From Tomocerus qinae (lineage: Eukaryota; Arthropoda; Collembola; Entomobryomorpha; Tomoceridae): 64,000 nucleotides of DNA. The notes under the pieces are model-generated. The model made no database searches, had not been told where the DNA came from, and worked only from the letters and a program-made list of their open reading frames with translations. Below are positions 10,895 through 55,029 of the stretch, in pieces (position 1 is the stretch's first letter; the number at the start of each line of letters is the position of its first letter). Made by a program: the position numbers and the translations under genes. The stretch covers positions 91,822,001 to 91,886,000 of the forward strand of contig CM034546.1 in assembly GCA_020055645.1 (NCBI GenBank), written 5' to 3'.

Positions 10895-17287
<6,393 letters not shown>

Positions 17288-37200: not shown

Positions 37201-37982
37201 GTGAAATAATATGATAGAATGGTGATGACCACCGTCCCTTGCGTTAAGGATATTTATTTCTTTGGAACGCAAGAACAAATAACTTGATTTTCCTTAATGG
37301 TATAATAATAAAGATCTTTAGCAATGGTTTAATGTATTTTATTCAGAAAAACACAACTCGCGAAGTGTTAGTCGTCCTAATACATAGATAAATTATATTA
37401 TCAGTAATGCTTGGCCATGGTCTTTCTGTTTCGACCACAATTAGCAACATTATTGAGCTATATAAGGTAGCATGGTTTGAAGGTACTTGTTCAAGCAACC
37501 GTAGAACTTCCAAGTTACATCAGTTCAATAAACTGTTTGCATTAAGTACTGACGGGGAACAAATACAATTATCCACCACTATGGGCTCGTCCTATCCTCC
37601 CTTTGATCTTCGCGTGTGCATGATGGTAGTTCAATTTAAACCGCCTGATCTATGCCCGAGTTGACTGATTAAATCGAATATTTATGAGTATCTTACTGGA
37701 ACGAGCAGGAGCTTTAATAAGGAATAAGTTTGTGTTTAACTTTGTTAGACCTTGGTTTAAGTTTTTTAATAGGATTGTCAGGTTTGTTTTATAAACCTCT
37801 TTCAGTATAAGTCAGTAGGGGAGGGTATGGGGTCCCTCTACAAAAAAACACCCTTTTTCACCCACTCCGGATATTAGAAGGGGGCGGCCCAGCCGACCCC
37901 CTAAGCATGTATAAGCAGTAAGCCATATCATCCCTATGCATAGCATTGCTGGTCCCTATCCTCCTACTAACCCCACCAACCC
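28291..37982. other. About 9.7 kb with no gene detected
   Basis: AT-rich unique sequence without recognised coding, RNA or mobile features. ORFs up to 132 codons occur on both strands (for example 31329-31727 minus) but overlap antisense ORFs of equal length, have no domain signature and no usable splice context. Short CA-rich tracts occur near 34830. It could contain regulatory sequence or introns of a gene outside the window; nothing here decides that. Confidence 0.5.
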
Positions 37983-38290
37983 CCAAGGAAGTGCATCAAA
38001 TCTTAAGAAAATTCCAAGACATCTCAAGGTTATCTCAAGGAAATCTCAAGAAAGTTTAAGAAATCTTAAGAAAGTTGTAAGAAAGCTTAAGAAAGTTATA
38101 AGAAATCTTAAGAAATCTCAAGAAAATCTCAAGAAAGTTGTAAGAAATCTCAAGAAATCTCAAGAAAATTATAACAAATCTCAAGAAAATTATAAGAAAG
38201 TGTAAGAAAACTCAAGAAAATTATAAGAAATCTCAAGAAAGTGTAAGAAATCTTGAGAAAGTGTAAGATAGAGTCAAGAAAGTTAAAAAA
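37983..38290 (+). repeat. AAG-rich degenerate tandem repeat
   Basis: Imperfect short units of the type AAGAAATCTC, AAGAAAGTTGT and AAGAAAATTAT continue for about 300 bases, preceded by C-rich sequence. The Lys/Asn/Ser-rich ORF across it is a repeat translation. It lies about 0.9 kb left of the first recognised gene of the Polinton and may be inside or just outside that element. Confidence 0.85.
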
Positions 38291-39166
38291 TGATTAAAAT
38301 CCACCCTGCAATCCCTAAAATGGGAAGCAGAGCGACGTGAACTGAGATGTGTTCGCTTCAAAGCCTGATGGCCGACTGAGGTCTCTCCCCTTGATGCATG
38401 AGTATAAGTAATGCAAGTCCCTTACCATCTCCCCTCTAACTAAGCCCGGCCTCCTCTCCCCCATTGGCTGATACATTTCCTCCTATTCTCCCACTGTTCC
38501 TAGCATGAAAAGTTTCCCTAGCTGCTCCATGTAAAGTTTCCTACACTTTATACATGAGAAAGTATGCTAAGGATTCATGCAAAACACATATAGGGTTATA
38601 TTATATACAACTTACTTTATTTCACACACACATCAAATACATATAGATGGAACTTATATACTCCTAACCTTATTTAGGGGAAGGAAGAGCAGATGTACAA
38701 AAGGACGCCGATCGATAACGTCAGGGATGACGTAATGTGAGGTAGGAAAACGTTTGGGTTGGGGGAACAGGAATAAACTTGTAGGAGATAGTTTATATGA
38801 CTACTTATAATGGAATGGTTTCTTATAGCTACATAATATTTTGTAAATTACTTTAGTAAATTCTAGGAAACATGTCAAATTTCTATGTACAAATGTTAAA
38901 AGATGTAGTTAATTTTAGTCATAAAGTTATGAATTCTTGTAAAATAATTGAATAATGTTAAAATATTTAGTAATTATCTAGTAAATCGTAGAGAATAAGT
39001 TAAAACATCTTGTAAAAAAGTTGAAAAAAGTTAAAATATCTTGTACAAAAGTTGTAAAATCTTATATAAAAGTAGTAAAAATCATCGAAAAACACACTAA
39101 AACAGTGAAAAACATGGAAAACATGTAGATCATGACATGGTGTGTAATTTTTTGACTAGCTTATAT
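38291..39166. other. Left flank of the Polinton gene block
   Basis: No ORF. Contains C/T-rich sequence (38400-38500), TTGTAAAA-rich sequence (38870-39100) and a minus-strand AATAAA equivalent at 38616-38621. The left terminal inverted repeat should lie here or somewhat upstream, but no stretch matched the reverse complement of the sequence right of 55029 by eye. Confidence 0.4.
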
Positions 39167-39971
39167 TTAGTATGGGAAAGTAAGCTTACGGGCTGCCTTA
39201 GTGTATCCTCGGCTATGACGGACAACATAACGTTGTCTTGTAGGGGCCTGTGGAATGGATACTTCTATCGGCTGTGGAGGGGTGACAGCAGATGGCTGGT
39301 GGCTCAGAGGGGAGTTAGGAGGTGATGGTGATGGAGACGCATTTCCAGGCCAAGTGTATTCTTTCCATTCTTTGTCGTCTAACATCAAAGGGGGGCCGAC
39401 AAGGTCTTCTGGGATATGCTGCATACGACCGTTCCTATATAGAGAAAATACGATTATATAGTCTACTATTACTACATTTATACACATACATACATTATTA
39501 CATATTACTTTATATATCAATTTGATATAAACTTACCAATCTTCTCTCATATTGTTGAGGCAGTATCCACAGGCTAGATTCCCTCCTTCAAAAACGTAGT
39601 ACTTAACGTATTTGGCTTTCATGAACGGAACTTTATTTAGTAGACAATATTTTGAATTGCAGACCTTTCTGTATGCAGGCATCCACTGTTTCATGTCTGT
39701 TGGGTCAGGGGTTACAGTCTTCATGTAGTTCTCCATCTTCATCTTGTTGAAGTGGCAACGGTAACATCTAGGGAGGCCATCTTCTCCGGTGTAGACAATG
39801 CCTTCATGCGTGTTCTCGACGTGGTCATGTTGACACACGTAACAGAAAAAGCTGAAATATATAGAATATATATATATAGTCCTAAGTATATATGCAGTGT
39901 ATATAACTTACATGAATTTAACAAAGTATAATGTAAACTTACGTATTTTTATGGTAGAAGGTTATGTTCAT
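39167..39971 (-). CDS. Cys-rich, Pro-rich Polinton accessory protein (gene E, three exons)
   Basis: Coding exons on the minus strand are 39971-39943, 39851-39537 and 39434-39167, with GTAAGT or GT donors and AG acceptors, giving 203 codons with the frame maintained across both junctions. The N-terminal half has four paired-cysteine motifs (CYVC at residues 13-16, CYRC, CNSKYC, CGYC), suggesting zinc binding. The middle is Ser/Pro-rich (SPSPSPPNSP, TPPQP). The C-terminus is basic, ending ARKLTFPY, which contains an RxLxF-like string. No family is recognised. Its ATG overlaps the stop of the upstream gene D as ATGA if D is spliced as proposed, so it would be the last member of the leftward gene series. 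Function unknown. Confidence 0.6.
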
Positions 39972-40620
39972 GGTGCCGAGTAGCAGAAGTGCGTTTCACT
40001 AACAGTTGGGATGTTTCTGTTGTTTTTCAGATAAGTCTCTACTTTCCTAAAGTCAAAACAAGAATGAATACCTGAAAATATTTAGAGAGAGAGAGAACAA
40101 CTTACTCTGTAGCGTAAACTTTCACTAGAAAGTCGAAGTACCAGTCCTGTTCTTCGGGGGGTTGGGTGAGGAGGCGTTTTAATTCGCCAAGCTGCAACCA
40201 GTGTTCGTTTTGCTTGATGGATAGGTAGTCGTCGCAGTTATTCAATCCCGTGTCTTCACAGTAGTTGCACTTTTCATGGATGGGATAGGAATTCCTATGT
40301 ATGATTCCTCCGGGAATCCAATCAACGTCTTTTTGAACGGAGCAAACTAAATGAGTTGGCAGTGCTGTACGTAGTACAGCTGCCGTTATTTTAAATACAC
40401 AAAGCACTACCGGATCCCGGCTAAAAAAACTCCACTCATCGTCTATAATTTTTTTAATACAAGCTTCTCTTGCCTTTTGCCCTCTCTTGCGTTCATCTAG
40501 AAAGGTTGATTGACAACGACAGCTTGCATAAAACTTACGTTTGTTTGGAGCACTGTCTCTGAAAATATGCATCCTATAAACATGGTCCTTCACTATTTGA
40601 AACTCGGTGATGATAGTCAT
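39968..40620 (-). CDS. Unrecognised Polinton accessory protein (gene D)
   Basis: Uninterrupted reading from the ATG at 40620 gives 172 codons, ending in TAA within GAGTAAGT. That sequence is also a good splice donor, and joining 40620-40106 to 40046-39968 (acceptor TTTAG) gives 197 codons ending CCATGA, which overlaps the ATG of gene E. The protein has Cys pairs (SCRC near residue 34, KCNYC near 138) and no family I recognise. Its start overlaps the stop of gene C as TAATG. The spliced form is preferred for the context but is unproven; an alternative acceptor at about 40074 leads quickly to a stop. Confidence 0.5.
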
Positions 40621-41048
40621 TATATATATACTATCTTAACGGCCTTTATGTTTCCTCTGCATATAAAACACTTTTCAAATTTATAGCAACACTGATCACA
40701 GGTGGCAAGGTGGCTGCATGGAAGAAATTCAAATATTACTTCCCTCGACACACATATATGACATCCATTTCTAGGTTCTTCAACTTCACTGGTTTTGATT
40801 AAATAACTCTTAGCATATAAGCACTGCTTCCTATGCAAATCGTATCGCTTGTCTATGTACGAAAGATTAAAGAAAGGTAGGTCACAATAGAAGCATGTCA
40901 TATACAAATCCGCTGTTATAAAGAAGCCTTCTTTTGCATACTGTTTCCAGTTGCTAAGTTCATTAGGCAAAAGAGAAAAAGAGTTCTTACGAATTTCAAT
41001 GTCGTCGTAATTAGGGTGTTGTATCTTACAAACATTAATTGTAGACAT
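40620..41048 (-). CDS. BIR-RING protein, divergent (gene C)
   Basis: 142 codons. Residues 20-80 resemble a baculovirus IAP repeat: RKNSF, GFFITAD, CFYC (Cys52, Cys55), then 16 residues to His72 and Cys76. The His-Cys spacing of three instead of about six is abnormal, so zinc binding by the BIR may be altered. Residues 96-130 are a C3HC4 RING with Cys96, Cys99, Cys111, His113, Cys117, Cys120, Cys127 and Cys130, the usual C-terminal IAP RING that acts as a ubiquitin ligase. It is the downstream neighbour of a better conserved BIR-RING gene with one base between stop and start, and is probably a diverged duplicate. Predicted role, from the family only: modulation of host cell death. Confidence 0.75.
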   Translation of the reverse strand: MSTINVCKIQHPNYDDIEIRKNSFSLLPNELSNWKQYAKEGFFITADLYMTCFYCDLPFFNLSYIDKRYDLHRKQCLYAKSYLIKTSEVEEPRNGCHICVSREVIFEFLPCSHLATCDQCCYKFEKCFICRGNIKAVKIVYI

Positions 41049-41049
41049 C

Positions 41050-41544
41050 CTAGATGTAAATTTTCAACATTGAGTCAACAGGGGCCCGACAAACTGGGCA
41101 CTTTGACTGGGAGCAAACACAGATGGGACAGCAAACTAGATGGGCACAGGGGAGATATACATAACGTGCTTCAAAAATTTTGCATACCTTGCAGATATTC
41201 TTGTCGTCGTCCGCTGGTTGCAATGTGTTTGGGTTCTTCACTTTATGTTTATTTAACACCAAATAAGAACAGCCATTGTAGGGAGTATTAATAGCATGCT
41301 CAAGGAAAGGACAGTCGTCTTTTTCCCAATTTCCTAGACAAAGTCCACAATAGAAGCACTGCACTGTATCTTTAGTTGGGATACGACTGTACAAGTTACT
41401 AGTAGTTAAATGATAAAATCCAGCGTGTGCCAAGTCTAGAGGTTTAATAAAATTCACTGGCCAATTGACGAAACTGTCGATACGTTTTTGCAGAGTGACG
41501 TACTCTTCCACTATTGGGCCATTGCACTGAATAGGATTAGGCAT
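41050..41544 (-). CDS. BIR-RING inhibitor of apoptosis-like protein (gene B)
   Basis: 164 codons. One BIR at residues 21-95: RIDSFVNWP, LAHAGFY, CFYC (Cys63, Cys66), 16 residues, His83 and Cys92, with the conserved W..DDCPFLEH context. A C-terminal RING is at residues 118-152 (Cys118, Cys121, Cys133, His135, Cys139, Cys142, Cys149, Cys152). This BIR plus RING arrangement is that of insect and baculovirus IAPs, which bind caspases or IAP antagonists through the BIR and ubiquitinate through the RING. The start overlaps the stop of gene A (TAATG), and the stop is one base from the start of gene C. It is intronless, unlike typical host IAP genes, which together with its position inside the element indicates it is element-borne. 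Confidence 0.85.
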   Translation of the reverse strand: MPNPIQCNGPIVEEYVTLQKRIDSFVNWPVNFIKPLDLAHAGFYHLTTSNLYSRIPTKDTVQCFYCGLCLGNWEKDDCPFLEHAINTPYNGCSYLVLNKHKVKNPNTLQPADDDKNICKVCKIFEARYVYLPCAHLVCCPICVCSQSKCPVCRAPVDSMLKIYI

Positions 41545-42032
41545 TATAAATGTAACTGGCCAAAATCCATTGATTCTAATTGTCTATCAACGAGAGTAGT
41601 AAGTTCCCTGCTCTCCTTTTTTCTTTCTTTAAGGATATCGGAAAGTGCACTTCCTATAGCTGCAATATTATACTCATTATTGAGTATATTGTTCTCAATC
41701 AATTGTTCAAATCTATGTTTAAGGGTATCTGGAGATCTCTCAGTTAAGCGCCAAATAGGATTTCCGTCTATCCGCACTGTTAGTTTTCGTTCGGCAGATA
41801 TGGCCTTATAGTTGTTTGCTCTAAGGTGAACAGAACTTAAATGATATAATGTAATGTACAAAGTAGATGAGAGGTGGTTACTACATAGTACATTTTGAAT
41901 ACATGGTACATGTGTTGACTTTACGCAACTACACGTAAACTCCCTTCTCAAAAGTGGGTGGCAAAGGTCTGAGTACCATAGGCTTATAACATGCCCGTTG
42001 GGGTGAAGGGAGAACTCAACAACCCCTACCAT
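41544..42032 (-). CDS. Unrecognised protein opening the leftward cluster (gene A)
   Basis: 162 codons from the ATG at 42032. The N-terminal third is Cys/His-rich; FTCSCVKSTHVPCIQ has the CxC...C spacing of a SWIM-type zinc module, but Gln replaces the last His, so this is only a resemblance. The C-terminal half is charged and probably helical (RHRFEQLIENN-like region, then ILKERKKESREL). The gene starts 50 bases from the divergent integrase start and shares its stop with the start of gene B (TAATG). No homolog recognised. Confidence 0.6.
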   Translation of the reverse strand: MVGVVEFSLHPNGHVISLWYSDLCHPLLRREFTCSCVKSTHVPCIQNVLCSNHLSSTLYITLYHLSSVHLRANNYKAISAERKLTVRIDGNPIWRLTERSPDTLKHRFEQLIENNILNNEYNIAAIGSALSDILKERKKESRELTTLVDRQLESMDFGQLHL

Positions 42033-42082
42033 CCTGCTTGACTTTTATCATTAGACTGCCCTCAGTTATATTCCATCCCTCA
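42033..42082. promoter_or_regulatory. 50-bp divergent start region of the Polinton
   Basis: The leftward gene A ATG (42032) and the rightward integrase ATG (42083) are separated by only 50 bases, containing ATTAGACTGCCCTCAGTTAT; the TCAGT in it is a possible initiator. Either one bidirectional promoter sits here or the two transcription units start inside each other's coding region and overlap. Confidence 0.4.
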
Positions 42083-43045
42083 ATGATGGCGGTTAACATA
42101 AAGCGTCAGTATCTCAACCCCCTATTTGCTGGATCTTTCTCAGGGGCTGAAGCTTTTATTAAAAATAGAAAACTAAAGGACAAAAAGTTTGTTATATCCG
42201 AGTTGAATAAGCTTAAGCCTTATGTTTTACACAAGCCTGCAAGGTCTAGGTTCCCCCGGCGCAAATTTATGGTTCACTTTAGGGGAGACCAAATACAAAT
42301 AGATCTACTGGATTTATCCAAGTATAGCAAAGAGAACAATGGCTATAAATATCTACTTACTGCTATAGATGTGTTTAGTAAAAAGGCTCATATAGTTCCA
42401 ATAAAGACAAAGAAGACAGCTGAAGCTGTTAGGGGAATCAAACTTATCATAAAAGCATTGGGGAAGCCAAGAACAATAGTTAGTGATCGTGGAAAAGAAT
42501 TTGTTGGACAGATGATGAAAAAGTATTTAGACAATGAAGGCATCATGCTGATGCATGTCTATTCAGAAATAAAAGCTAGTGTAGTTGAAAGGTTTCATCG
42601 AACTATAATGTCCCGTATATCTAGATACTGGACTCATAGAGGGAATAGAAAATATATAAAAGCTCTCCCCCTTCTTTTGAAAGGATACAACAATACAAAA
42701 CATAGCACAACCAAGTTTGCCCCTAATGATGTGAACGACAATAATGAACATCTGGTTTGGAAGAATACGTTTGAACATCTGGTGAAGCAACCCAAACGTA
42801 AACCTAAATATGCTGTAGGGGACATTGTGCTTATTTCTAGAACAAAGGCCCTTTTTTCAAAAGGATATGAACAAAACTTTGTGGATATTCCCTATAAAAT
42901 ATCTAAAGTACGTACTACACAACCCCCGACGTATGAGTTAGTAGAGACTGTGCATCGTACGTCGAAAAGGGGAAAGGAATTACCGTTAGAATATTTGTTG
43001 GGAGGTTTCTACGAGGCTGAACTAGCTCGCTACATTCCCTCTTAG
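42083..43045 (+). CDS. Polinton integrase (DDE, retroviral type)
   Basis: 320 codons from the first ATG; the open frame extends back to a TTG that is unlikely to be used. The N-terminal region ends in RSRFPRRKF. The catalytic core has IQIDLLDL (Asp74), TIVSDRGKEF (Asp135) and SVVERFHR (Glu169), a DDE triad of the rve family, with YLLTAIDVFSKKAH in between. The C-terminal region has YAVGDIVLIS, FSKGYEQNF and GGFYEAEL, the conserved Polinton integrase SH3/chromo-like tail. It would insert the linear element DNA into the host genome, generating a 6-bp duplication. The frame is intact. The next ORF begins nine bases after the stop. Confidence 0.95.
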   Translation: MMAVNIKRQYLNPLFAGSFSGAEAFIKNRKLKDKKFVISELNKLKPYVLHKPARSRFPRRKFMVHFRGDQIQIDLLDLSKYSKENNGYKYLLTAIDVFSKKAHIVPIKTKKTAEAVRGIKLIIKALGKPRTIVSDRGKEFVGQMMKKYLDNEGIMLMHVYSEIKASVVERFHRTIMSRISRYWTHRGNRKYIKALPLLLKGYNNTKHSTTKFAPNDVNDNNEHLVWKNTFEHLVKQPKRKPKYAVGDIVLISRTKALFSKGYEQNFVDIPYKISKVRTTQPPTYELVETVHRTSKRGKELPLEYLLGGFYEAELARYIPS

Positions 43046-43054
43046 CTATTGGTC

Positions 43055-43441
43055 ATGGCAACATCCAAGATTGCTATTCTTAAAAACAATACTAAAGTTT
43101 TGATTACTAATCCTAAAGAAAAATCTGAGAAAGTTTGGATACAAAATACGTCAGGAACTATATGTTTCAATGTTGACGAACTAAGGAATATAAAGAACAG
43201 TATAAAATTATTGCTAAAGAAACGAAAACCGTATGCTGCTGAAAAAGTTTGTTCACTTTCTCGATCAACTTGGGTTAAATTAGGAAAACATAAACTGATT
43301 GGAAACGAGGAAGACATTTATCGATTATCTAACGGTGTTAATGGTTACAAGCTTATGAGTAGATTTGGAAAAGACATTCCAGGAAGCTATTTTGATAGTG
43401 ACATTCTTATAGACAAAGAATGCGTCGCTTTTATAAACTAA
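43055..43441 (+). CDS. Small Polinton ORF F
   Basis: 128 codons from the first ATG in frame. No family is recognised with confidence. The stretch KVWIQNTSGTICF followed by a Lys-rich helix parallels, in predicted beta-strand then helix layout, the next ORF (IHIREPDGSITG, then LKELGDLIKKL), hinting that F and G are related small DNA-binding proteins. It lies between integrase and the minor capsid gene and overlaps ORF G by 22 bases. Confidence 0.55.
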   Translation: MATSKIAILKNNTKVLITNPKEKSEKVWIQNTSGTICFNVDELRNIKNSIKLLLKKRKPYAAEKVCSLSRSTWVKLGKHKLIGNEEDIYRLSNGVNGYKLMSRFGKDIPGSYFDSDILIDKECVAFIN

Positions 43442-43617
43442 AGTGTGGCTATAACATTTGGACTACCGAGAATCATATCCATATTAGAGAACCTGACGGA
43501 AGTATAACTGGAAGAGGAAGCACTATACCTTTAAAAGAACTTGGAGATCTTATTAAAAAATTACAAATTGTGCAAAATGGACGGCTACACGGTTCACGTC
43601 GACAGCAGACAGTGTAA
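43420..43617 (+). CDS. Small Polinton ORF G
   Basis: 65 codons, ATG at 43420, overlapping the end of ORF F and, by 41 bases, the start of the minor capsid gene. The string HIHIREPDGS, then GRGSTIPLKELGDLIKKL, is reminiscent of the strand-turn-helix end of PC4-type single-stranded DNA-binding coactivators. The resemblance is weak and was not searched. Its double overlap makes it either a genuine compact gene or a chance frame; the ordered composition favours a gene. Confidence 0.4.
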   Translation: MRRFYKLKCGYNIWTTENHIHIREPDGSITGRGSTIPLKELGDLIKKLQIVQNGRLHGSRRQQTV

Positions 43618-44704
43618 GACTCTATTTTCAGAAAATAGAGGATCGAGTTTTACTAATGACTTATATGATACTATTAAAGTGTCAAAGCATCACTACGAGT
43701 GCGGCTTGGTTAGGGCATCCTTTACCTCAAAACCAAGATCTGTTTTTGGTATCTACCCTGGGGACAATGAAATTGAAATTTTTGTTGGAAAACATAGAGC
43801 AATAAAGCATTTTCTAACTCTGAAACACAAAACAGTGAATCTTTTTATCTTCTTCTTTGAATTTGATGTAAGACAATTTGGAGTTAATGTGAAATTGGTT
43901 GAAGTAAGTGATGGATCGGGGGCAGTGAGAACAAAATTAATTAACAATGATGATTCCGATTTCATATTTGACAAATTTTTAGCTCGTGCGATTGGTTTTG
44001 GTGAAAAAGTTAGTTTTGCAAAAGGAGAACATACAAGTGATGGTTTTATTGACAAAGCAAAGTTTGCCGACATCCCTCAAAACTATATGATGAGATATGA
44101 AGTTCAATTTCCTTTCCATCACCAAGTGTTTGCAATTAAGGAACCTAAGAGATTTAATTTTGGAGCTTTGATTACAAATATAAATATTGCTTTGCAGTCA
44201 TATGAATCTACTGCGGCGGTTGAGTTCTATCTTCATGATAAAAATGTTGAAATAGAAGCCGACAAGGAAGACGTTACAGTATGTTTCCGAGGACCTATCC
44301 TACATAGGCTATTTGGGATTACGGAGATATCCTTAGGATCCCTAAAACAAATTGAGGAAAAAGATGAAAATGGAGTTGTACATACGTTTACAAAAGCCCA
44401 GGTGAAACTAGAAAACTGTGACACAAGCTATTTTGAAAGTTTAAGGCGTGGCTTCATTCTCACTGATCTAATAAAAAATACTTACTACGGGAGAAGATGT
44501 ATGCCTATTGTTGGAGTTATAGACACAGTAGAGAACAATAGCAAGTATGTTCATGTTGAGTTCCCTACAATACAATATGTTCCCCTAAATGTAAATGAAT
44601 TCAATACAGTCAATGTACAAATACTTGATGACTCCCTGTGTGAGCTGGCAGTATTAAACCAACCTTCATTCGTGACGCTTCACATTCGTCCGAGAAAATA
44701 CTAA
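43577..44704 (+). CDS. Polinton minor capsid (penton-type) protein
   Basis: 375 codons from the ATG at 43577; an upstream TTG in the same open frame is not needed. Position before the core-like peptide and major capsid gene, length, and the C-terminal pattern (YVHVEFPTIQYVPLN, then VQILDD and FVTLHIRPRKY) match the single-jelly-roll minor capsid proteins of Polintons and adintoviruses, which form the vertex pentamers. The frame is intact. Two bases separate its stop from the next ATG. Identification rests on context and the C-terminal signature rather than on a structural comparison. Confidence 0.75.
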   Translation: MDGYTVHVDSRQCKTLFSENRGSSFTNDLYDTIKVSKHHYECGLVRASFTSKPRSVFGIYPGDNEIEIFVGKHRAIKHFLTLKHKTVNLFIFFFEFDVRQFGVNVKLVEVSDGSGAVRTKLINNDDSDFIFDKFLARAIGFGEKVSFAKGEHTSDGFIDKAKFADIPQNYMMRYEVQFPFHHQVFAIKEPKRFNFGALITNINIALQSYESTAAVEFYLHDKNVEIEADKEDVTVCFRGPILHRLFGITEISLGSLKQIEEKDENGVVHTFTKAQVKLENCDTSYFESLRRGFILTDLIKNTYYGRRCMPIVGVIDTVENNSKYVHVEFPTIQYVPLNVNEFNTVNVQILDDSLCELAVLNQPSFVTLHIRPRKY

Positions 44705-44706
44705 CA

Positions 44707-44976
44707 ATGGATGTTCAAATCGGTGGTGGTCTAGGCCTAAAACCCGTGTCGTATACAATACCTTTCATTGGAAAAGAAACTATTGAAAAGAAGAAAAAGA
44801 GAGCCAAACGTGCCATTAAGCAAGTAGGAGGGGGACAGAAAAGATCTAAAACTCAGACAAAGGCAAAGAAGAGGAAAAACAGCCAACTCTCAACCAGTTT
44901 GGATTTGGAAAAAGAAAAAAGTAACAAAAAGAAGTGTGCGAAGGGAAAAAGAACAAAAAATCAAAATGAGTTTTGA
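44707..44976 (+). CDS. Basic core-like peptide with a GG-rich N-terminus
   Basis: 89 codons, extremely Lys/Arg-rich after residue 28. Near the start IGGGLG fits the adenain cleavage consensus (M/I/L)xGG|x, and QVGGGQ near residue 42 is a second Gly-rich site. Small basic virion proteins trimmed by the viral protease occur in adenoviruses (pX, pVII), and adintoviruses carry comparable ORFs, so a DNA-condensing or membrane-active virion precursor is plausible. This is inference. It overlaps the major capsid start by 11 bases. Confidence 0.6.
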   Translation: MDVQIGGGLGLKPVSYTIPFIGKETIEKKKKRAKRAIKQVGGGQKRSKTQTKAKKRKNSQLSTSLDLEKEKSNKKKCAKGKRTKNQNEF

Positions 44977-46278
44977 AATAACAAAGGGCAGCTCTTTGTC
45001 TGTCCGTAGTGAAGTAGATTTGTTTAGCATCCCACCAACTGATGTTGGCGTTTGCTACTCTACTACCCAGGAAGTCTACCCTCTCAATAGCACAAAAGAA
45101 AAATATTCTAGTATTCAGTTTCTTATTGAAGGCAACTCTACATTTATAGATTTAGCAAACAGTTTGTTACGAGTTTTGGTTCAAGTTACTAAACATGATG
45201 AATCAACTGAACTTACTGATGCAGATGATGTCTCCACTGTAAATAATTTTTTCCATTCATTGTTCCAGTCAGCGGAACTACAGTTGGGCGATTACCTTAT
45301 TACGACTGCGTCTAATAATTATGCCTTTAAAGCATTTTACACTACTGTTCTTGGAAAGGGAGCTCCTTACAAACAAACTGCTGGGCAGGCGGAAATGTAT
45401 TACCAAGATACAAAGGGAGGTGATTACACTACCGCTAACACAGGGATGGTTGCAAGGAAAAATAAAATAGCTAAAAAGTCAAATATTTGAAATGGTTGGT
45501 CCGCTATTACTGGATTTGGCAGAACAAAATAGATACATACTAAGCAATTTAGATGTGAGGATCAAGTTGACAAGAAATTCCTGATGACTTTGTTTTATGG
45601 AGTCCAACCCCAAGAACGGAAAATTCGAATGTTTGCCCTTATACTGTAAAAATAATAAGCGCAGTATATAATGTTCGGCGACATGTAATGACAACAAAGT
45701 ATTTAAACTACTTCCACAAAAAAATTGAACAAGAACCGGCCCGTTATACTTATGACAAAGATGAAGCAAAAACATTTAATGTAAATAAGGGACTTACGAG
45801 TGGATCCTCGGATAATCTATTCATGGGACAAATCCCCCAACTGGTTGTTATAGCTATGGGAAAAAGTGGGGACGTAGCAGGGAAGCTAGCTACAAATCCT
45901 TTCAACTTTCAACACTTTAATGTGAAGAGGATAGCAGTTTCAGTTGATAACGATCCTACTCTTTATCGTGCATTGGATTTCAATATAGAAGCAAACCAGT
46001 ACCTAACTGGGTATATGAGCTTGTTTACAGCTGCCTGCAACCGGGACCTAGGGAACAACCTAACAATAGAGGACTACTTGAATGGCTATTTCTTCAATGT
46101 GTTTGAACTTGTTTCCCCTAGTACTGGAGACGACCTCCTGCCGGAGAGACGTGGTCGTCTGAAAATTGAATTGGATTTTCAAAAAGCCCTGGAGGAGCCT
46201 ATTACTTGTATTGTATATGCTCAGTATCAGGCTTCTCTTACTATTGATAAAAATAGAGTTGTAAAATCTTCTACATGA
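44966..46278 (+). pseudogene. Polinton major capsid protein gene, frame disrupted twice
   Basis: Starts MSFEITKGSS, with the typical EVDLFSIPPT motif of Polinton double-jelly-roll major capsid proteins a little downstream. Coding signal continues across about 1.3 kb, roughly 436 codons, the expected size for hexon-type trimers. The first frame stops at 45488-45490. Coding continues in a second frame until about 45583, and in a third frame from about 45585 to the TGA at 46276-46278. Thus two small indels lie near 45470-45485 and 45580-45586. Either the gene is dead or the assembly has errors. The final frame ends DKNRVVKSST and its TGA overlaps the protease ATG (ATGA). Confidence 0.85.
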
Positions 46279-46705
46279 ATACATTAGAGTTAAAAAAGAA
46301 GTTAAATGTTATAAAGGGGAAATGGGACTTGCAGCATAGTGATGTTGTCCCTAGAGATATGCTTGATATATCTCTATGCCGAGCTGCTACATTGTCAACT
46401 CGCAGAAATCGGGCTTTGAAGGTTTGCATTGGCTTGCGTATGCAGCCTTTTCCCCTAGACGCATTTACTTTTTTGATTCGCTTGGAAAAAGACCTGAGTA
46501 TTATGGGTTTACTATTCCTTATACTGTTAGCGTTAACGACCAACAACTTCAAAGTGACTATGCTAATACGTGTGGAGAATTTTGCCTATACTATCTGTAC
46601 TATACGTTTCAAGGCATGCCTAGCGATGTTATCCTCAAAGCCTTTACATGTAATAATAAAAGAAATGATTCCATTGTAAAAATGTTTGTCAGAAGATTGA
46701 AATAA
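46275..46705 (+). pseudogene. Adenain-type cysteine protease gene, one frame disruption
   Basis: The main ORF (from 46376) has GLHWLAY with catalytic His18, FFDSLGK with the acidic partner Asp34, and QSDYANTCGEFC with Gln59 and nucleophile Cys66. The seven-residue Gln-Cys spacing equals that of adenovirus protease (Gln115, Cys122). The N-terminal part (MNTLELKKKL through VVPRDMLDI) starts at 46275 in another frame, so a one- or two-base indel lies near 46360-46380. An internal start at 46376 would lack the beginning of the fold. Its role in the family is to cleave capsid precursors during virion maturation. Confidence 0.85.
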
Positions 46706-46706
46706 A
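46701..46706 (+). terminator. Polyadenylation signal at the end of the protease gene
   Basis: AATAAA overlaps the protease stop codon (46703-46705) and is the only canonical signal lying in an intergenic gap between integrase and polymerase. It would end a transcript covering integrase to protease. Confidence 0.45.
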
Positions 46707-46708
46707 TG

Positions 46709-46827
46709 TATAAAACACATGTACTGTTGTTCTTATTGAATAGGGTATATTGAGAGGTTAGGGTAGGGATAGCGTCATTCGAGCTTTAGCTCTCATTGCG
46801 TGCACACTACTTTATCAAGCAGTCAAA
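46709..46827 (+). promoter_or_regulatory. Putative polymerase promoter in the only large gap
   Basis: TATAAAA at 46709-46715 starts three bases after the AATAAA of the preceding gene. The 122-bp gap is the largest in the rightward block, where other genes abut or overlap. It gives room for a start site about 30 bases downstream and a short leader before the polymerase ATG at 46828. Confidence 0.45.
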
Positions 46828-49800
46828 ATGCCTAGACCAAGGTGGAGTGTTGATCCAGGGAACTTTCGAGTAAGGATTTTTAGAACTTTTGCATTTTGTC
46901 ATATTATATCCATATTTAAGCATAGCATATTTTTAGTGTGCCTGCGAAGTAGAAGGATGCACACATACCGCTGCCATCGTCAAAGCCAGCTTAACGCACA
47001 TAGGTTTCGTATCCATCTCTGCCCTACGTGCCATGGCCTGTTCCTATATAGAAGATTGCACCAACCATGCAATGCACCGCATGTTAATCCCGCCCCACAG
47101 CAAGGAGGAGGACCGTTTCAACTCACAGCAGATGCACACCATTCTAGACTTTTAGTCTACAGACATCATCAAGTGCAGGGTATGACTGATTTAAATGTCT
47201 TATTTGAATTTGTAAGGCCAGCAGCAGTGGAACTGATAGGCGAAATTCTTCGTAGAGATAAAGGAGTTAGAATTGATTTTACAACTCACGTAAGATTAGA
47301 AAGAGACGGTATCACTGCCGATGTTTTTCTAAGAGCATCTTCTATGGCACTACTTCATGAAAATTTAATAGAAATGATTTATCGTACAGCATTGTTACAG
47401 CAAGAAAACAAATTAGAAAGATTTACTCAAAACGGTAGCGGTTGGAGGGTTCAAGAATTTCTTTATTTTGAAATGTCCTTTGGAAGGTACAGACCGATAA
47501 GAGGTAGTGGATATATTCCTACTCCTCCTGAAGTTGGTAGGTATGGTCTCTTAAACATTGAGAACCATGACAATTATTGCTTTCTATATTGCATTTATGC
47601 ACATCTTTACCCTATTCAAGGAAGATCGCCTTCAAGGACAAACCCTAAATCTTATTTTCCTAAGATAATGAATGACAGTTGTCGTTTAGATACAACCATG
47701 TTTATGAGTTATCCAATCGCTATTCAAGACTTTAGTAGATTTGAAAGAGCAAATAACATATCCATAAATGTTTATGCTTATAATGCAGAAAAAGGGTATA
47801 AACGTAGACAGAGGGAAACAATGGAAATATTGTTGTATATCCCATCGTTCTTACAAAACAATATAATGTACCAAGAGAACGTCACATAAATTTACTGCTA
47901 TTAGAAGAGGATAACAAATTTCATTATGTCCTCATTACTAATCTGTCATCGTTTATTGGGAATGATGACAATAAGTACGATCTTTGTAGATTCTGTTTAA
48001 CAAAACGTTACATAAGACGAACAGTTAGAGATCCTTTAGATTCTAGTCAAATGGCTACAATAAATGATACAGATACTATTGAAAACCATGAGAAGATATG
48101 TAGGAGTGTTAGAAAGCCAAGAATTGTTTTTCCTGAACAAGGATGTATTGAGTTCAAGGATCTTAAACAAACGTTAGCAGTTCCTTACATCTGTTTCGCA
48201 GACCTGGAAGCTTTCATGACACAGATACATAGAAATGGAATAGATCTGCACGATCCTTCATCCTATGCATACATTATATGCAGTGAGGATAGAGTAGAAA
48301 CATTTAGGCTCTATGATGGAGAAAATCCTATAAATGATTTGCTAGAACATTTACTTTTAGAAGCTGACGAGTATTTAAATCGAATTAAACAGTTTCAACC
48401 TCTTCAAATGACTGATGAAGATTTAATAGATTATGTACGTTCAGTAAAGTGTAAATTCTGTGAGGAATACTATGACGAAGATAATGACAAAGTAAGGCAT
48501 CATGCACACGTAGACTGCATTTACTTAGGAAAACGGTATAATGCTGGGCAGTATATTTGCACTTTGTGCAATAATTGTAATTTACAAATTAAATTCAAAA
48601 ACGAATTCTATGTAATGTTCCATAATGGACAACGCTACGACTTGAAAATGTTAGTTAGTAGTATGGGTCCTGAATATGCAAACAGAGTTGAAATACTTGC
48701 AAAGACGAAAGAAAATTTTATCAGTATTAGAATTGATAAAAAGTTGAGAATTACAGATTCCATTCAGCATTTAAGAGGCGGCCTAGCTGACTTAGTTGAA
48801 AGTCTTTACGGAGATTCTATCGATAAATTTCGTTGTACCAAGTCCGTATTTCATGGTTTTGAAAGTATACTACACAAGTTAGTTCGAAAGCAACCTTTTC
48901 CATATAAATATTGTAGAGGTCCTGAAGTATGGGAAGAAACATCTCTGCCTCCTAGAGAAGCATTTTATAATGACTTACGAGATGAGAATATTACTGAGGA
49001 AGAATATGAACATGCACAGGAAATATGGAATGATTTAGGATGCCAAACGTTTAGAGATTATTGCAGGATCTACCTAACATTAGATGTTACTTTATTGGCA
49101 GATGTCTATCTGGATTATAGAGCAAGTTGCATGAATGAGTTAATAATAGATCCAACTTATTCTATTACGTCTAGTGGATACTCATTTCAAGCATTTTTAT
49201 ATTTATCTAAAGTCGAGATAGATTATATAAGAGATATCGACATATACTTAATGTTGTGCAAAGGACTAAAAGGAGGGGTGACTCAGGCTGCAACACGATT
49301 TGTGAAAACTAACTTGCCTGAGTTAGAAGGGTACGAAGAAAGTAAACCGAGATCCGAGATCATGTTTACAGATTGTAATGCAATGTACCCTAGCGCAATG
49401 CTTCAGCCTATGCCTGTGTCAGGTTTTAGAATGTTACAACCTTTGGAGCTAGAGTCTTTCGACTTGATGAATATTGACGATTCTTTAGGCAAAGGTTATA
49501 TCATAGAGTGTGATGTAGAGTATCCTGACGCCTTACATACAGCACATGCAATGTTTCCTATGATGCCTGAAAAGTATAGTGTTGGTATGATGGAGTTGTC
49601 AGATTATCAAAAGGACTTACTGGTAGAAATAAATCAGGGAAAATCTTATGCTGCAGAGAAGTTATTACTTACATTGTTTGATAAAGATAATTACATCTGC
49701 TATCATAAACTTATGAGATTTTATGTCTCTAAAGGAATTGTTATTAAAAAGTACCACAGAATAATAGAATTTAATGAAACTGCATATATGGCTGACTACG

Positions 49801-50684
49801 TTGAAAAAATTAGTGAGCTTCGTAAAAATGCAAACAGTGAGATTCTGGCTTTATACTATAAAATCATTCTGAACTCCATTTATGGCTACTGTCTTAGAAA
49901 TAAAGCGAATGATATTGACTGCAAGCTCTGCTTTGATGCAGAAACTTGTGAACGGTTTTTGGCAATGCACAATTATCACAGTAATACTGTAGTTAACGAC
50001 GACTTAAGTGTTTTTCAGTTCAAGCAAAATAGTATTAAGTTTACTCAACCATATGCGACAGGATTCTGTATAACAGAACTAGCCCGTCTAGAGTTATATT
50101 CATTCTACTATGACGTGCTGTCACCGCATTTCAATAATAGGCTCAGTGTTTGTATGATGGATACAGATAGTGTAATGGTGAATATTGAGTTAAAAGAAGG
50201 TAGGACATTAACTGATGAGTTGGAAGAGATTAAGGAACATTTTGATTTTAGTAATCTAAGTGAAAAGAGTCCACATTTTAGATTAAAATCAAATGAGAAT
50301 GCTAGTAAACCTGGAAAGTGGAAGCTGGAAAAGAATGGCTTGAGATTTCTTGAGGCATGTGCATTGAAAGTTAAAATGTATAGCTACCTACTAGAGGAAA
50401 TGAAAGACGGTAAACTAGTGGAAGTAAAAAAAGGAAAGGGCGTGGCGAGGGCGGTACTCAAGAGATTAACTCACGGGTTGTATAAAGACGTATTGTTTAA
50501 TAGAAAGACCGTCAGACGGTCTGCGAAGTTCATTGCGAGCAAGAGATTGCAGTTGCTTACTGTTGCTGTTGATAAACTTACACTACATCCCTTTACTGCA
50601 TCCAGATACATTTTGGAAGACGGGATAAATACATTACCTTTTGGGCATAAAGACATTAGGGAAGTCTCTGTAGTAAATATTTAA
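46828..50684 (+). pseudogene. Polinton family B DNA polymerase, one frame disruption
   Basis: Codes for about 1,285 residues, the normal size. The N-terminal ORF (46828-47889) has a Cys/His-rich start and the Polinton-specific GLLNIENHDNYCFLYC region. A frame change near 47824-47835 leads into the long ORF continuing to 50684. Counting from Met at 48051: exonuclease motifs are FADLEAF (Asp51, Glu53), FHNGQRYD (Asn192, Asp197) and YLTLDV (Tyr341, Asp345); polymerase motif A is DCNAMYP (441-447), motif B is KIILNSIYG (604-612), motif C is MDTDS (Asp704, Asp706), followed by the KxY-type KMYSY. A Cys-rich CKFC...CTLCNNC block precedes exo II as in the family. All catalytic residues survive, so the single indel is the only visible defect. 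Confidence 0.92.
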
Positions 50685-50685
50685 A

Positions 50686-51312
50686 ATGGATAATAGACTA
50701 GACATAAACCTGCAATTTCCTTTCAGTATGATAGTAACTGCACCTAGCATGGCTGGAAAAACCACTTTTGTATTTGATTTACTAAAGAGAAGAAATGAAA
50801 TTTTGCCTGAGCCGGTAGAAAAAGTATTTTACTATTATAAGCATTGGCAGCCTGTGTTTGAAAACTATAGTGATATTATATTTACGAAATCAATAGAGGA
50901 TTTAGAGTCAATGATGTGTGACAGCTGCATTGTTGTATATGATGATTGCATGAATGACTTTGAGGGGCGACTTAATACTTATATCAAAACAGTCTTTACC
51001 CAAAACGTGAACCACGGAAGACGAGGGGTAATTGTATTGTTACAGAATGCCTTTTGTAAAAACTTAGTGTCTATTACTAGAAATGTGACTTATCTAGTTG
51101 TAGGAAAGTTTGCCTATGATCAGGGTATTATATGTAATATAGCAAGAAAAGTTTCTCCTAGGAATATAACTTATATTATTGATGCCTATAACTCAGTGAA
51201 TAGTAATGGGTATGGCTTTATCATATTTGATTTTGCTATGAAGACCCCCGACCGGTATAAAGTTAGGAGTAGCCTTTTTCCCGACAACATGAAAATATTT
51301 AGACCATTATGA
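50686..51312 (+). CDS. Polinton genome-packaging ATPase (A32/FtsK type)
   Basis: 208 codons, ATG one base after the polymerase stop. Walker A is APSMAGKTT (Lys25), Walker B is CIVVYDD (Asp86, Asp87), and a polar sensor LLQN (Gln120, Asn121) follows. These are the hallmarks of the A32-like packaging ATPases that pump DNA into the capsid. The first Gly of the usual GxxxxGK is Ala. Length is normal for the family and the frame is intact. The last codons overlap the next start (ATGA). Confidence 0.92.
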   Translation: MDNRLDINLQFPFSMIVTAPSMAGKTTFVFDLLKRRNEILPEPVEKVFYYYKHWQPVFENYSDIIFTKSIEDLESMMCDSCIVVYDDCMNDFEGRLNTYIKTVFTQNVNHGRRGVIVLLQNAFCKNLVSITRNVTYLVVGKFAYDQGIICNIARKVSPRNITYIIDAYNSVNSNGYGFIIFDFAMKTPDRYKVRSSLFPDNMKIFRPL

Positions 51313-51647
51313 TGGAGGGGGTCGAGCAGGAAGCATCTTTCTTAAACAAGCTCGTTGTTAGTAAGACTACGAAAAGGAAAACTCTCATAATAAAAGCAAA
51401 GCAAGAACAGCTTACTGCAGTTGCCGAGTGCCTTTTGAATATAGAAAGTCTTGAACTAACAACTGAGGAGAAAAAGTGTTTGAAAAAATATAAAAGTATA
51501 TTGAAAAAGTTTAACAAGTCCAAGTTTACATTACTTAAGTTGAAAAAATTTCTTGTCAAAAACTTACTATTTGTTGTTAAAGTCATTGCGACTGTACTTA
51601 CAAAAGTTATAGAGCAAAGTGTAATTAACGTCTGCAACCATGGCTAG
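51309..51647 (+). CDS. Conserved-type Polinton ORF I
   Basis: 112 codons, start overlapping the ATPase stop. AVAECLLNIESLELT, then KCLKKYKSILKKF and a hydrophobic C-terminus resemble, from memory of the family, a short ORF recurrent in animal Polintons with the pattern ECxLNhhxGxhxLxxxxKxxLxKYK. The function of that ORF is not established to my knowledge. The strongly basic middle and hydrophobic tail would suit a virion or membrane-associated role. It overlaps ORF J by eight bases. Confidence 0.6.
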   Translation: MMEGVEQEASFLNKLVVSKTTKRKTLIIKAKQEQLTAVAECLLNIESLELTTEEKKCLKKYKSILKKFNKSKFTLLKLKKFLVKNLLFVVKVIATVLTKVIEQSVINVCNHG

Positions 51648-52113
51648 GGTGTACAGAGTCATTTCGGAGGATGAGTACAATGCATGTATGAGAAAAGAAA
51701 CAAAACAGAAAGAGGAGGTTAACAAAATTGATGCAATGGTAAAATATCTAAATCCCAACCTAAAAGCTAAGGGGGAACGACTCCTGCAAGCTTTAGCATT
51801 GACTTCAGATGTAAACTGGAAGCCTAATGGACAATTTATCTATAAAGGTAAAGTTGTCGAAAATGCTAATATTGTGGATTTGGTATCTTTTGTAACCAAA
51901 CGACTATTGCCACACCATGTAAAAAAAGTTAACCTCCCAGGTCTGCAATACTTTTTGCAGGCGATTAAAGAAAATTTTTTACCTAGAGAGTTAGTTTCCT
52001 CTCATATACATGCAATGCTTTCCGAAACTAATGGCGATGATGATGTAGAACCTCCTCAAAAAATTAAGAAAATAAATAAAAACAATGTATGGAAAAAGTT
52101 TAGGTTTGAATAA
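51640..52113 (+). CDS. Conserved-type Polinton ORF J
   Basis: 157 codons. DVNWKPNGQFIYKGKVVENANIVDL-type layout (a short beta region with an N-I-x-D-L string), followed by LPGLQYFLQAIKENFLP, is the pattern of another ORF that recurs next to the ATPase in Polintons. The C-terminus is acidic then basic (NGDDDVEPPQKIKKINKNN). Function unknown. It is the last rightward gene; a polyadenylation signal follows at 52257. Confidence 0.6.
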   Translation: MARVYRVISEDEYNACMRKETKQKEEVNKIDAMVKYLNPNLKAKGERLLQALALTSDVNWKPNGQFIYKGKVVENANIVDLVSFVTKRLLPHHVKKVNLPGLQYFLQAIKENFLPRELVSSHIHAMLSETNGDDDVEPPQKIKKINKNNVWKKFRFE

Positions 52114-52256
52114 AAAGCTGGGGCATTGTTTGTGTACTACTCTACAATACTCAGTGACTAAGATGTAAGAAACTTAAAATGTATAGAGACAAGACCTAAG
52201 CTCTCATGTGAGTAGATTAGGCAATGATAAGTTAATGTGTAAAGTATTTGTGAGAA

Positions 52257-52262
52257 AATAAA
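52257..52262 (+). terminator. Polyadenylation signal after ORF J
   Basis: AATAAA 144 bases after the ORF J stop, the natural end of the rightward polymerase-to-J transcript. The opposing gene on the minus strand has its own AATAAA equivalent at 52826-52831. Confidence 0.55.
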
Positions 52263-52481
52263 TTGATCTGGCCTTGTAATTTGATTTTGTTGATTCATTA
52301 TTTGTAGTAAAGTCATATTTCAGTGTCATATATCATTATTGTAGCATGTATTATGGAAGCAAAATACATTTGATTAGATTTTATGTTCACCAAGGTGATT
52401 TCCATGATTTCCATGTTTTTCACTGTTTTATCTATGATTTAGTTGATATTCTATCTAAATTTTATGAATCGTCGCATATTA

Positions 52482-52770
52482 ATCTGCATATTTACTTATT
52501 TGTCTTAATCTACATATGTAACATATTTGTCTTAATCTGCATATGTAACCTATTTGTCTTAATCTGCATATGTAACCTATTTGTCTTAATCTGCATATGT
52601 AACATATTTGTCTTAATCTGCATATGTAACATATTTGTCTTAATCTACATATGTAACATATTTGTCTTAATCTGCATATGTAACCTATTTGTCTTAATCT
52701 GCATATGTAACATATTTGTCTTAATCTGCATATGTAACATATTTGTCTTAATATTTACTTATTTGTCTAC
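52482..52770 (+). repeat. 27-bp minisatellite between converging Polinton genes
   Basis: About ten units of ATTTGTCTTAATCTGCATATGTAAC(A/C)T in the gap between the end of ORF J and the end of the five-exon minus-strand gene. It is unrelated in sequence to the 27-bp array at 1.8-3.5 kb. The open frame across it (FVLICICN repeats) is not a gene. Confidence 0.93.
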
Positions 52771-52825
52771 ATGCTAGTATATGAAATTATCTTGAAATAC
52801 AAAGTAGTTGAAAGAAAAAAAAGTA

Positions 52826-52831
52826 TTTATT
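52826..52831 (-). terminator. Polyadenylation signal of the right-end minus gene
   Basis: TTTATT on the plus strand, that is AATAAA on the minus strand, 134-139 bases after the stop codon at 52965. Confidence 0.55.
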
Positions 52832-52964
52832 GAAAGTGATCGTGGAATTATACAAAATCATTAAATGGAATAGAATTTGGCAAGACAAAAAGAATTTGAA
52901 ACAGTAATTGAAATAAAAGACTAGGTGGAATGACCTTAATGGCAGTGGTTGCATGTAGTAGACC

Positions 52965-55029
52965 TTAGTCCAACGTTTCGACGCCTTCGTTCATATCCAG
53001 CTGTAAATATAAATAAAAATAGTGTCAAATAAAACAATGATTGAAGATTATGTGCTAAATGAAGTTTAAATTCTTACAGCTGCTTTCATTTGTTGAAGTA
53101 GCCCCTTTTTCATCTTTAAATGCTGTTCCTCTTGTCGTAGGTTGTTTTCTCTTAATCTTTTGGAAGTTGCAGTTTCTACTTCCAACTTTTGACGTAGAAA
53201 TTTTCTTTGATCCGTCAAGTGGGCGATCATATCGGACATTGACTGCACGACCGTCTCCCTCAACTTGCATTCTTGGCAGTCTCCTTCCCGTTCCTGAATA
53301 AGAAAAAAAAATGAAATAAGTTATCTATGATTTATACTATTCCTACAAATTAACTTAAAAATTTAAACTTACGTTATAACTTTCTCGTACTGCTCTTGGC
53401 AAAATGACCGTATCCACTGATGCATTTGACAGTGGCGAAAGATGAATAGTGGAAACAGGGGAAGTTGGTGTATATCCATTTTCTAAGTGACGGCGGATTT
53501 CGGGGGAAAAGGTTGGCGGAGTTCCAGTGTAATCGGTGTAAAATTCCCCCGAAGACTCAGGTGTGCAGTTTGGTGGCTGTACTATCGGGGAGAGGACAAC
53601 ACTAAGCTCACGCTCAGTGTTGTTGGCCAGCCTTGACGGTCCCGGTTGAGGAGAGAAAGTTCTCTTCCTTTTTGATTCCTGTAATAATTAAAACAGATTT
53701 AGTCAAATAAATTTTGTTGGATTAAACTTGCAAATTTAAAAAATATACGAACCTCCTCGTCCGACGAATAAGACAGTCTCTTTGTCTTGACTTTCTTTTT
53801 CAATGGAGTTGGCGGTGCTGATTCTTCTGTTTCATCGTTGAGGAAATCGTCGTCCGAAGAATGTTCCGAGTAGTACTCGGACGCACACTACAAAACATAA
53901 TTTTACTAAATCAGTAAATAGTTAAAAAAAACCAAATATGAAAATATGATTCTACATAAGTTAATTATCTACATAATATGCAAATAACATGCTACATAAT
54001 TTTAATTATGAAACTATGTACCTACATAATTTTAATTATGATAATAAGTACCTACATAAGTTAATTATGATAATAAGTACCTACATAAGTTAATTATGAT
54101 AATATGTATCTAGATAAGTTAAATAATGAAAATATGTACCTATATAAGTTTAATTATGATAATAAGTGCCTATATAAGTTTAATTATGATAATAAGTACC
54201 TACATAAGTTAATTATGATAATAAGTACCTATATAAGTTTAATTATGATAGTAAGTACCTACATAAGTTAATTATGATAATATGTACCTACATAAGTTTA
54301 ATTATGATAATATGTACCTACATAAGTTTAATTAATGAAATATGTACCTATATAAGTTAATTATCTACATAATATGCAAATAACATCCTACATAATTTTA
54401 ATTATGAAACTATGTACCTACATAATTTTAATTATGATAATAAGTACCTACATAAGTTAATTATGATAATAAGTACCTATATAAGTTTAATTATGATAGT
54501 AAGTACCTACATAAGTTAATTATGAATATATGTACCTACATAAGTTTAATTATGATAATATGTACCTATATAAGTTTAATTATGATAATAAGTACCTACA
54601 TAAGTTAATTATGATAATATGTATGTATGTAGTATGAAAATATTTTTATATTCTAATATGCATCTACAATATATATATATAGCTAGATAGAAGTTTAAAT
54701 ACTTCATTAACTACAACTTGTAAAGTATTATATTAATTTTTGAAGGAATGTTGCTGTCAAAGTATCGGTACTAATCCTATAACGAAGCAATAATTTTATA
54801 ATTGAATTGTTTCTATTTAAATAGTGTTGCATTATTCTGCCGTCACTAAATGAATTACTAATTAAGTAAATAGAACGGAAACTAAGAAAACATATTGTAG
54901 GTATGCAAGTTAAAAGATTATGATTAAATTAGTAAATAAAAATTAGTAAAAAATGTTGGTTCTTACGTTTCCGACGTCATCCTCAGCTTCGTTAAGTACA
55001 AAAAGCTGTCTTCGAACGGATTTCTTCAT
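52965..55029 (-). CDS. Five-exon RxLF, SP/TP-rich coiled-coil protein at the Polinton right end
   Basis: Minus-strand coding exons 55029-54967, 53887-53753, 53678-53373, 53293-53078 and 53000-52965, all with GT-AG boundaries and all phase 0, give 251 codons. The N-terminus MKKSVRRQLF contains RQLF, matching the RxLF cyclin-docking consensus. Exon 2 is acidic (HSSDDD, DETEE) and then basic, with TPLKKK, a CDK-type S/T-P-x-K site within a nuclear-localisation-like stretch. Exon 3 has a second basic cluster (SKRKR) and eight SP or TP dipeptides. Exon 4 (residues 169-240) is a charged heptad-like helix, probably a coiled coil. No family recognised. Inference: a nuclear, cyclin/CDK-regulated or CDK-interfering accessory protein. 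Intron 1 (1.1 kb) is mostly a minisatellite. Confidence 0.7.
53935..54635 (+). repeat. 29-30-bp minisatellite in intron 1 of the right-end gene
   Basis: About 22 imperfect units of TAATTATGATAATAAGTACC followed by TACATAAGT. Two larger blocks (53955-54060 and 54361-54440) repeat each other, indicating a later block duplication. It is AT-rich and non-coding. Confidence 0.92.

Follow-up and report, generated by a model that had tools for sequence, protein, structure and literature searches.

Tandem BIR-RING (IAP-type) genes in a Polinton-type element of the collembolan Tomocerus qinae

Inhibitors of apoptosis (IAPs) are established anti-apoptotic genes of baculoviruses and related large viruses, and the viral IAPs of arthropod large DNA viruses, such as baculovirus IAP-2 and IAP-3, iridovirus 193R, nudivirus IAP, and that of Leptopilina boulardi filamentous virus, have a BIR domain followed by a C-terminal RING. 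The present analysis concerns two adjacent BIR-RING genes, B and C, carried by a Polinton-type element of Tomocerus qinae, within a window of 64,000 nucleotides (contig CM034546.1; C1:91822001-91886000 of the 334-Mb genome). In comparison with the arthropod-virus IAPs, the window genes have a single BIR, encode only 142-164 amino acids (aa), and lie in tandem with one-base overlaps or gaps; moreover, they sit in an integrating Polinton and have many paralogues with degenerate BIRs.

As for transposable and virus-like elements, anti-apoptotic genes are mentioned for mammal-associated adintoviruses, in a paper whose main text contains neither the term IAP nor inhibitor of apoptosis (PMC11071296). 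The Burro giant retroelements of planarians have BIR and BCL2-like domains, which their description discusses as perhaps interfering with host apoptosis and ubiquitination (PMC6431247). Burro thus resembles the window element in being a transposable element with a BIR, but there the domains belong to the polyprotein of a long-terminal-repeat retroelement, whereas B and C are separate BIR-RING genes within a DNA element. The literature titles and abstract openings surveyed, a set without the original adintovirus paper, report no Polinton-borne IAP or IAP arrays.

The first-pass annotation of the window, made from the letters alone, placed B and C one base apart. This holds exactly: the two open reading frames (ORFs) are separated by base 41049, and the annotated range is precisely the extent from C to B.

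41050-41544, minus strand: gene B, BIR-RING (IAP-type) protein of 164 aa, by Pfam and by matches to solved IAPs
41260-41484, minus strand: BIR of B, residues 21-95 (PF00653, E = 1.5e-16, 61.1 bits, cut-off 22.9)
41068-41202, minus strand: RING of B, residues 115-159 (PF13920, E = 4.1e-9, 36.6 bits, cut-off 27)
40620-41048, minus strand: gene C, BIR-RING protein of 142 aa with a degenerate BIR, by Pfam, profile and fold comparisons
40824-40991, minus strand: BIR of C, residues 20-75 (PF00653, E = 0.0022, 18.9 bits, below the 22.9 cut-off)
40641-40769, minus strand: RING of C, residues 94-136 (PF13920, E = 3.1e-9, 36.9 bits, cut-off 27)

Profile searches therefore return significant Pfam matches for both domains of B and for the RING of C, while the BIR that had also been read in C stays below the Pfam cut-off. 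Compared by sequence with solved IAPs, the BIR of B has a best E-value of 1.9e-19 (NAIP/BIRC1) and its RING matches BIRC2 (3t6p) in two stretches; the match of C is confined to the RING. At the profile level, however, an alignment of the B and C families extends over 129 columns (probability 99.2, E = 1.9e-19). Fold comparisons of the predicted structure also back the BIR of C. Among its viral fold matches at E <= 0.001, 14 of 18 models are named IAPs or apoptosis inhibitors, albeit with low template-modelling scores (TM-scores), and most of the best ones bear the names of the arthropod-virus IAPs listed above, a likeness of fold only. The models were built from three-row alignments, and this comparison rests on C, the model of B being too poor; the matches listed cover the BIR half of C, and its RING half has a predicted local distance difference test score (pLDDT) mostly below 50. 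B and C are thus confirmed as BIR-RING genes well beyond chance, with the degenerate BIR of C as the reservation.

Regarding individual residues, Trp W73 and Asp D77 are invariant in nine rows of B, two of which are identical; we take these residues to line the BIR peptide groove (XIAP numbering). The position of the groove Trp is occupied by Leu in all 8 rows of C, including P0001, a protein described below. The residues that never change across the 28 rows of the family alignment are the Arg, the Gly-Phe pair, three Cys of the BIR, and seven of the RING, and the BIR His and the RING His vary. A set of 5.8 billion proteins contains no homologue of B and one homologue of C, namely P0001, which is 73% identical over 134 residues and lies on a 1,167-bp contig; the 28-row alignment used as a query returns P0001 again and nothing further from that set. 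IMG/VR yields no confirmed relative of B, the integrase, the ATPase, the C family, or the B family.

According to comparison with four sister copies, which sets its ends, the Polinton-type element spans 37814-56543 (18,730 bp) and has a perfect 6-bp target-site duplication on both sides.

37808-37813: left target-site duplication TAAGTC; flanks vary among copies, with six identical bases at each end
37814-37893: left end of the element, beginning AGTAGGGG; the alignment with the C1:41.49 Mb copy begins at 37814
56464-56543: right end of the element, AGTAGAGG read inward, from sister-copy comparison
56544-56549: right target-site duplication TAAGTC, matching the left one

The element ends and the duplication enclose both genes, so B and C do lie within the Polinton, as annotated, and the alternative of a breakpoint that excludes them is refuted. 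The sister copies have duplications of their own: GCCATT at C1:41.49 Mb, GCAATA at 60.53 Mb, CGCATC at 132.5 Mb, and TTAATG at 66.49 Mb. As for terminal inverted repeats, the two window ends have just AGTAG in common, and three sister copies start with AGTAGT or AGTAGA and show, by eye, short inverted repeats of approximately 15-23 bp. Vertebrate Mavericks have an AGT-AGT end motif but longer terminal inverted repeats of 46-1,447 bp (PMC8097293). A 35-bp inverted repeat (39098-39132 and 52396-52430) was rejected as the element ends because the sister copies align well past it on both sides. A sixth near-identical copy at C1:68.70 Mb has an ATPase 99% identical to that of the window, but no match to B, and the stretch examined on its opposite side (L042) shows no match to any part of the element; this copy seems truncated and was excluded from the copy comparisons, target duplications included. 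Minisatellite arrays occur near the left end of the element (37998-38281, 10-52 bp) and further inside it at 52479-52752, 53992-54623, and 55725-55953 (27 bp x 10, 30 bp x 21, and 76 bp x 3, respectively).

Conservation of the pair across copies was examined in 25 loci. C follows B in all 18 loci where B is at least 51% identical, and among these the best alignment piece is uninterrupted in 17 loci for B and in 14 for C. The other seven loci (L024-L030) have B at no more than 42% identity, or none at 35% or above, and no C match at that level. Two conserved accessory genes, A and D, flank the pair, and neither has a Pfam family over the cut-off.

41544-42032, minus strand: gene A, conserved accessory ORF of 162 aa, its stop and the start of B sharing one base (TAATG)
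40102-40620, minus strand: gene D, conserved accessory ORF of 172 aa, its start and the stop of C sharing one base (TAATG)

In the same 18 loci, the junction from A to B is a one-base overlap (TAATG or TGATG) in 14 of 14 measurable cases, that from B to C is a gap of precisely one base in all 15 measurable cases, and that from C to D is again a one-base overlap in 15 loci, with a two-base gap in the remaining three. Loci without a measurement mostly belong to the L021 subfamily; in L021 the ORFs are arranged otherwise, with an A-B overlap of about 46 bases and 3 bases between B and C. The window and the L006/L007 subfamilies, which are near saturation at synonymous sites, share the same spacing, from which we infer that coupled translation from a polycistronic message is under selection.

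Purifying selection is evident from the ratio of non-synonymous to synonymous substitution rates (dN/dS) between the window and diverged copies, with the caveat that these copies share history and the tests are not independent. Against L002, L004, and L005, dN/dS equals 0.022-0.049 for B, 0.117-0.154 for C, and 0.061-0.066 for D, and against L004 and L005 it is 0.075-0.102 for the integrase; Fisher tests for fewer non-synonymous changes give 1.9e-7 to 4.6e-6 for B and 7.8e-11 to 3.3e-7 for C. Gene A is likewise under purifying selection. Chance reading frames are ruled out for B and C by the Pfam E-values together with this selection. Identity to the window is uneven among neighbouring genes: D has 81% in L021 and 46% in L012, B has 53% and 68%, respectively, and the synonymous distances between the window and L002 are 0.07, 0.12, 0.37, and 0.04 for A, B, C, and D. 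Judging by such sequence comparisons, accessory genes look as though they may have been shuffled between Polinton subfamilies.

The association of BIR genes with Polintons extends over the whole genome, where it was followed through matches to the integrase and the ATPase.

42038-43045, plus strand: integrase, rve core (PF00665, E = 6.1e-12)
50686-51312, plus strand: putative packaging-type ATPase (PF04665, E = 0.072, below the cut-off)

Searching the genome with PF00653 finds 56 BIR places, 49 of which have an integrase or ATPase match no more than 15 kb away, although such zones make up 1.30% of the genome; with the ATPase alone (122 matches in the genome) the values are 44 of 56 and 1.02%. 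The distances were chosen by the analyst, many places are copies of few families and not independent, and these linkage counts are lower bounds, as the genome searches score the best candidates alone. Merging the B matches with the PF00653 places gives 66 loci, some of them RING-only matches, with 57 linked to an integrase or ATPase and 9 unlinked. Among the 57 linked loci, 38 are within 2.5 kb of an integrase match, 10 within 2.5 kb of an ATPase match, and 9 are placed otherwise, so the position beside the integrase, to which the annotation had drawn attention, recurs in Polintons of this genome. Viewed from the other side, 95 of the 128 integrase/ATPase clusters hold both genes, and a B-like or PF00653 match is found within 14 kb in 55 of the 128 and in 46 of the 95.

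Seven PF00653 places are unlinked. Two belong to a host-like IAP at C4:12.52 Mb (L047), two are degraded copies of Polinton-type genes (L056 and L057), and the others are at C1:67.21, C1:67.27, and C2:58.76 Mb. The host-like IAP, which is presumably DIAP1-like, consists of two BIR frames and one RING frame, all separate; BIR and RING domains are common to it and to B and C, but it has two BIRs and is split in pieces, whereas B and C are uninterrupted single-BIR frames. Elsewhere, L064 (C1:63.08 Mb) contains an open C-type BIR-RING frame closely like that of the linked L063, with no integrase or ATPase match within 15 kb, and is possibly a solo remnant or a domesticated copy.

Related Polintons in this genome carry one to four BIR-RING-like genes. 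Where the B-type gene is 38-42% identical, the elements have tandem BIR-RING-like frames, three in L024 and four each in L025 and L028; in both L025 and L028 the BIR of the first paralogue exceeds the Pfam cut-off, and two further paralogues that were scanned score below it for BIR and RING alike. Custom profiles reveal four divergent BIR-RING-like frames in L066. A further arrangement, with the BIR near the ATPase, is seen in L049-L052, where two BIRs and a RING extend over two frames near the ATPase and integrase, likely as a gene split by an intron, and in L053 and L054, where one BIR and one RING occupy separate frames. Relatives of the integrase, polymerase, and ATPase stand beside L049, L053, L066, and L062, and those of the capsid and protease beside the first three of these four loci, not L062.

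The BIR tree comprises 39 BIR domains and 83 columns, i.e., short sequences, with an arbitrary root and a long branch for L063. One split (96/98) separates 19 C-type BIRs, all from integrase- or ATPase-linked loci, from 20 others that include host BIR1, host BIR2, and the B-type. In the two-BIR Polinton genes, BIR1 falls together with host BIR1 and L060 (99/96), but BIR2 shows no grouping with host BIR2. As to a common placing of B and C with host genes, which the first-pass annotation had considered, the tree with the genome's own host-like IAP sets the C-type apart, but where the B-type falls among host BIRs the 39 domains do not settle. In our reading, the tree points to two or more captures: an early one behind the B and C types, and another of a two-BIR gene.

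B and C are probably accessory genes of a Polinton/Maverick (adintovirus-like) element, acting as IAP-type RING ubiquitin ligases to hold back host cell death, the C-type having been retargeted. The anti-death function is what the family alone would lead one to expect. A single polycistronic message would serve for the translation of both proteins, through termination-reinitiation. With its groove Trp and acidic residue, B would bind IAP-binding-motif proteins, i.e., caspases or their activators, and either ubiquitinate them or shield the host IAP, and the host cell would thereby survive while the element is replicated and packaged. In C-type paralogues the RING and most of the zinc-binding frame are retained and the groove Trp is lost, a loss which suggests that they may be ligases redirected to other host factors, or else RING partners for B. 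Such genes suggest that blocking host cell death or immune signalling belongs to the lifestyle of these elements. A bolder proposal, which we put forward tentatively, is a multi-gene BIR-RING ligase family of the Polintons' own: a C-type branch that has a dismantled groove and a varied RING and occurs in several Polinton families, arrays of at most four genes, and one message with stop-start coupling would together deliver a fixed set with different targets, a counter-defence arsenal outnumbering the host BIR genes.

The strongest competing explanation, which we consider rather unlikely, is that these ligases are aimed mainly at immune signalling or replication-restriction factors, so that the likeness to IAPs tells of origin and not of present use. 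Insect IAP2-type proteins do act in immune signalling, the RING is the best preserved part of C, and the C-type paralogues fall on one side of the 96/98 split, with no groove Trp in the C rows. However, B keeps its groove residues in 9 of 9 rows, and most viral fold matches of C (the 14 of 18 at E <= 0.001) carry IAP names. It is improbable that only the B-type inhibits apoptosis while the C-type consists of structural or regulatory zinc proteins, e.g., RING partners controlling the turnover of B. Within the window's subfamilies C indeed adjoins B in every one of the 18 loci, at fixed spacing wherever this is measurable (15 of 15), but the linked loci L061, L062, L063, L065, and L066 have C-type frames with no B-type frame in the 3.5-4.5 kb covered and no PF00653 place; therefore, the C-type seems not to need B.

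Passenger copies of host IAP genes, useless to the element, are very improbable. The two-BIR type of other Polintons does resemble the host IAP through its BIR1 (the 99/96 grouping with host BIR1 and L060). Two observations also speak against our preferred explanation: the youngest pair, the window and C1:41.49 Mb, differs by non-synonymous changes only (2 in B, 3 in C, and 0 synonymous), and in the L021-L022 pair dN/dS of B reaches 0.82, from two changes. In contrast, diverged copies are under purifying selection, with no dN/dS near 1 among them; the genes recur in several divergent families; and the pair and its spacing are preserved between subfamilies with near-saturated synonymous sites. 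Purifying selection among diverged copies, together with the exclusively non-synonymous youngest pair, indicates that constraint acts between diverged copies and not after insertion, presumably during propagation. Least credible of all are host genes domesticated from Polintons and kept under host selection: 9 of the 66 loci, including the open C-type frame of L064, do lie away from integrase and ATPase matches, but for the window copy this is already contradicted, as its pair sits in a recent insertion with no synonymous difference in B and C from C1:41.49 Mb, both with target duplications.

If B and C do serve the element by restraining host cell death, they bear on the question of whether Polintons are viruses that must manage the host cell: a virus-like existence would call for anti-death genes maintained by purifying selection, and the arrays supply specific proteins that can be tested. 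The fact that most Pfam BIR places (49 of 56) adjoin Polinton genes also matters for counts of 'expanded IAP gene families' in animal genomes, and Polinton-borne BIR genes suggest a possible route for gene movement between viruses and hosts.

The remaining genes of the element are as follows.

39167-39520, minus strand: accessory ORF of 117 aa, no Pfam match
39533-39838, minus strand: accessory Cys-rich ORF of 101 aa, no Pfam match over the cut-off
43541-44704, plus strand: ORF of 387 aa in the minor-capsid place, named from its position, with relatives in L066 and L071 but no family match
44936-45490, plus strand: presumed major capsid protein, first open piece; no Pfam match over the cut-off, relatives in L069 and L071
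45688-46278, plus strand: presumed major capsid protein, second open piece in another frame; relatives in L068, L069, and L071
46376-46705, plus strand: adenovirus-type endoprotease, open piece (PF00770, E = 2.7e-6, 27.6 bits, cut-off 21.3)
48051-50684, plus strand: ORF of 877 aa in the polymerase place, with polymerase-like motifs by eye; relatives in L068, L070, L071, and L072

The ORFs in the polymerase, ATPase, and capsid places have no library match over the cut-off, but each has relatives near an integrase elsewhere. A protein-primed family B polymerase was sought in the 877-aa ORF, with no Pfam match over the cut-off and no PDB match; its relatives in other loci lie near the integrase and ATPase. 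As for the double jelly-roll major capsid, its two open pieces lack a library match over the cut-off and have relatives in other Polinton loci. In the window copy the presumed capsid frame (44936-46278) is interrupted, the two pieces lying in different frames; therefore, this copy itself may not form particles, and the virion formation supposed in the first-pass annotation is doubtful for it. The protease frame (46275-46705) is possibly interrupted too, and the integrase of the C1:41.49 Mb copy carries two stops. At the right end of the element, the minus strand (52975-53900) shows by eye a coding stretch, Ser/Pro-rich and coiled-coil-like, that is broken into several pieces bounded by splice-like borders. 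Outside the element, the window contains a match to trehalose/sugar gustatory receptors at 18090-18980 (PF06151, E = 1.4e-8), indicative of an arthropod host, and, by eye, alpha-tubulin-like open stretches at 16025-17314.
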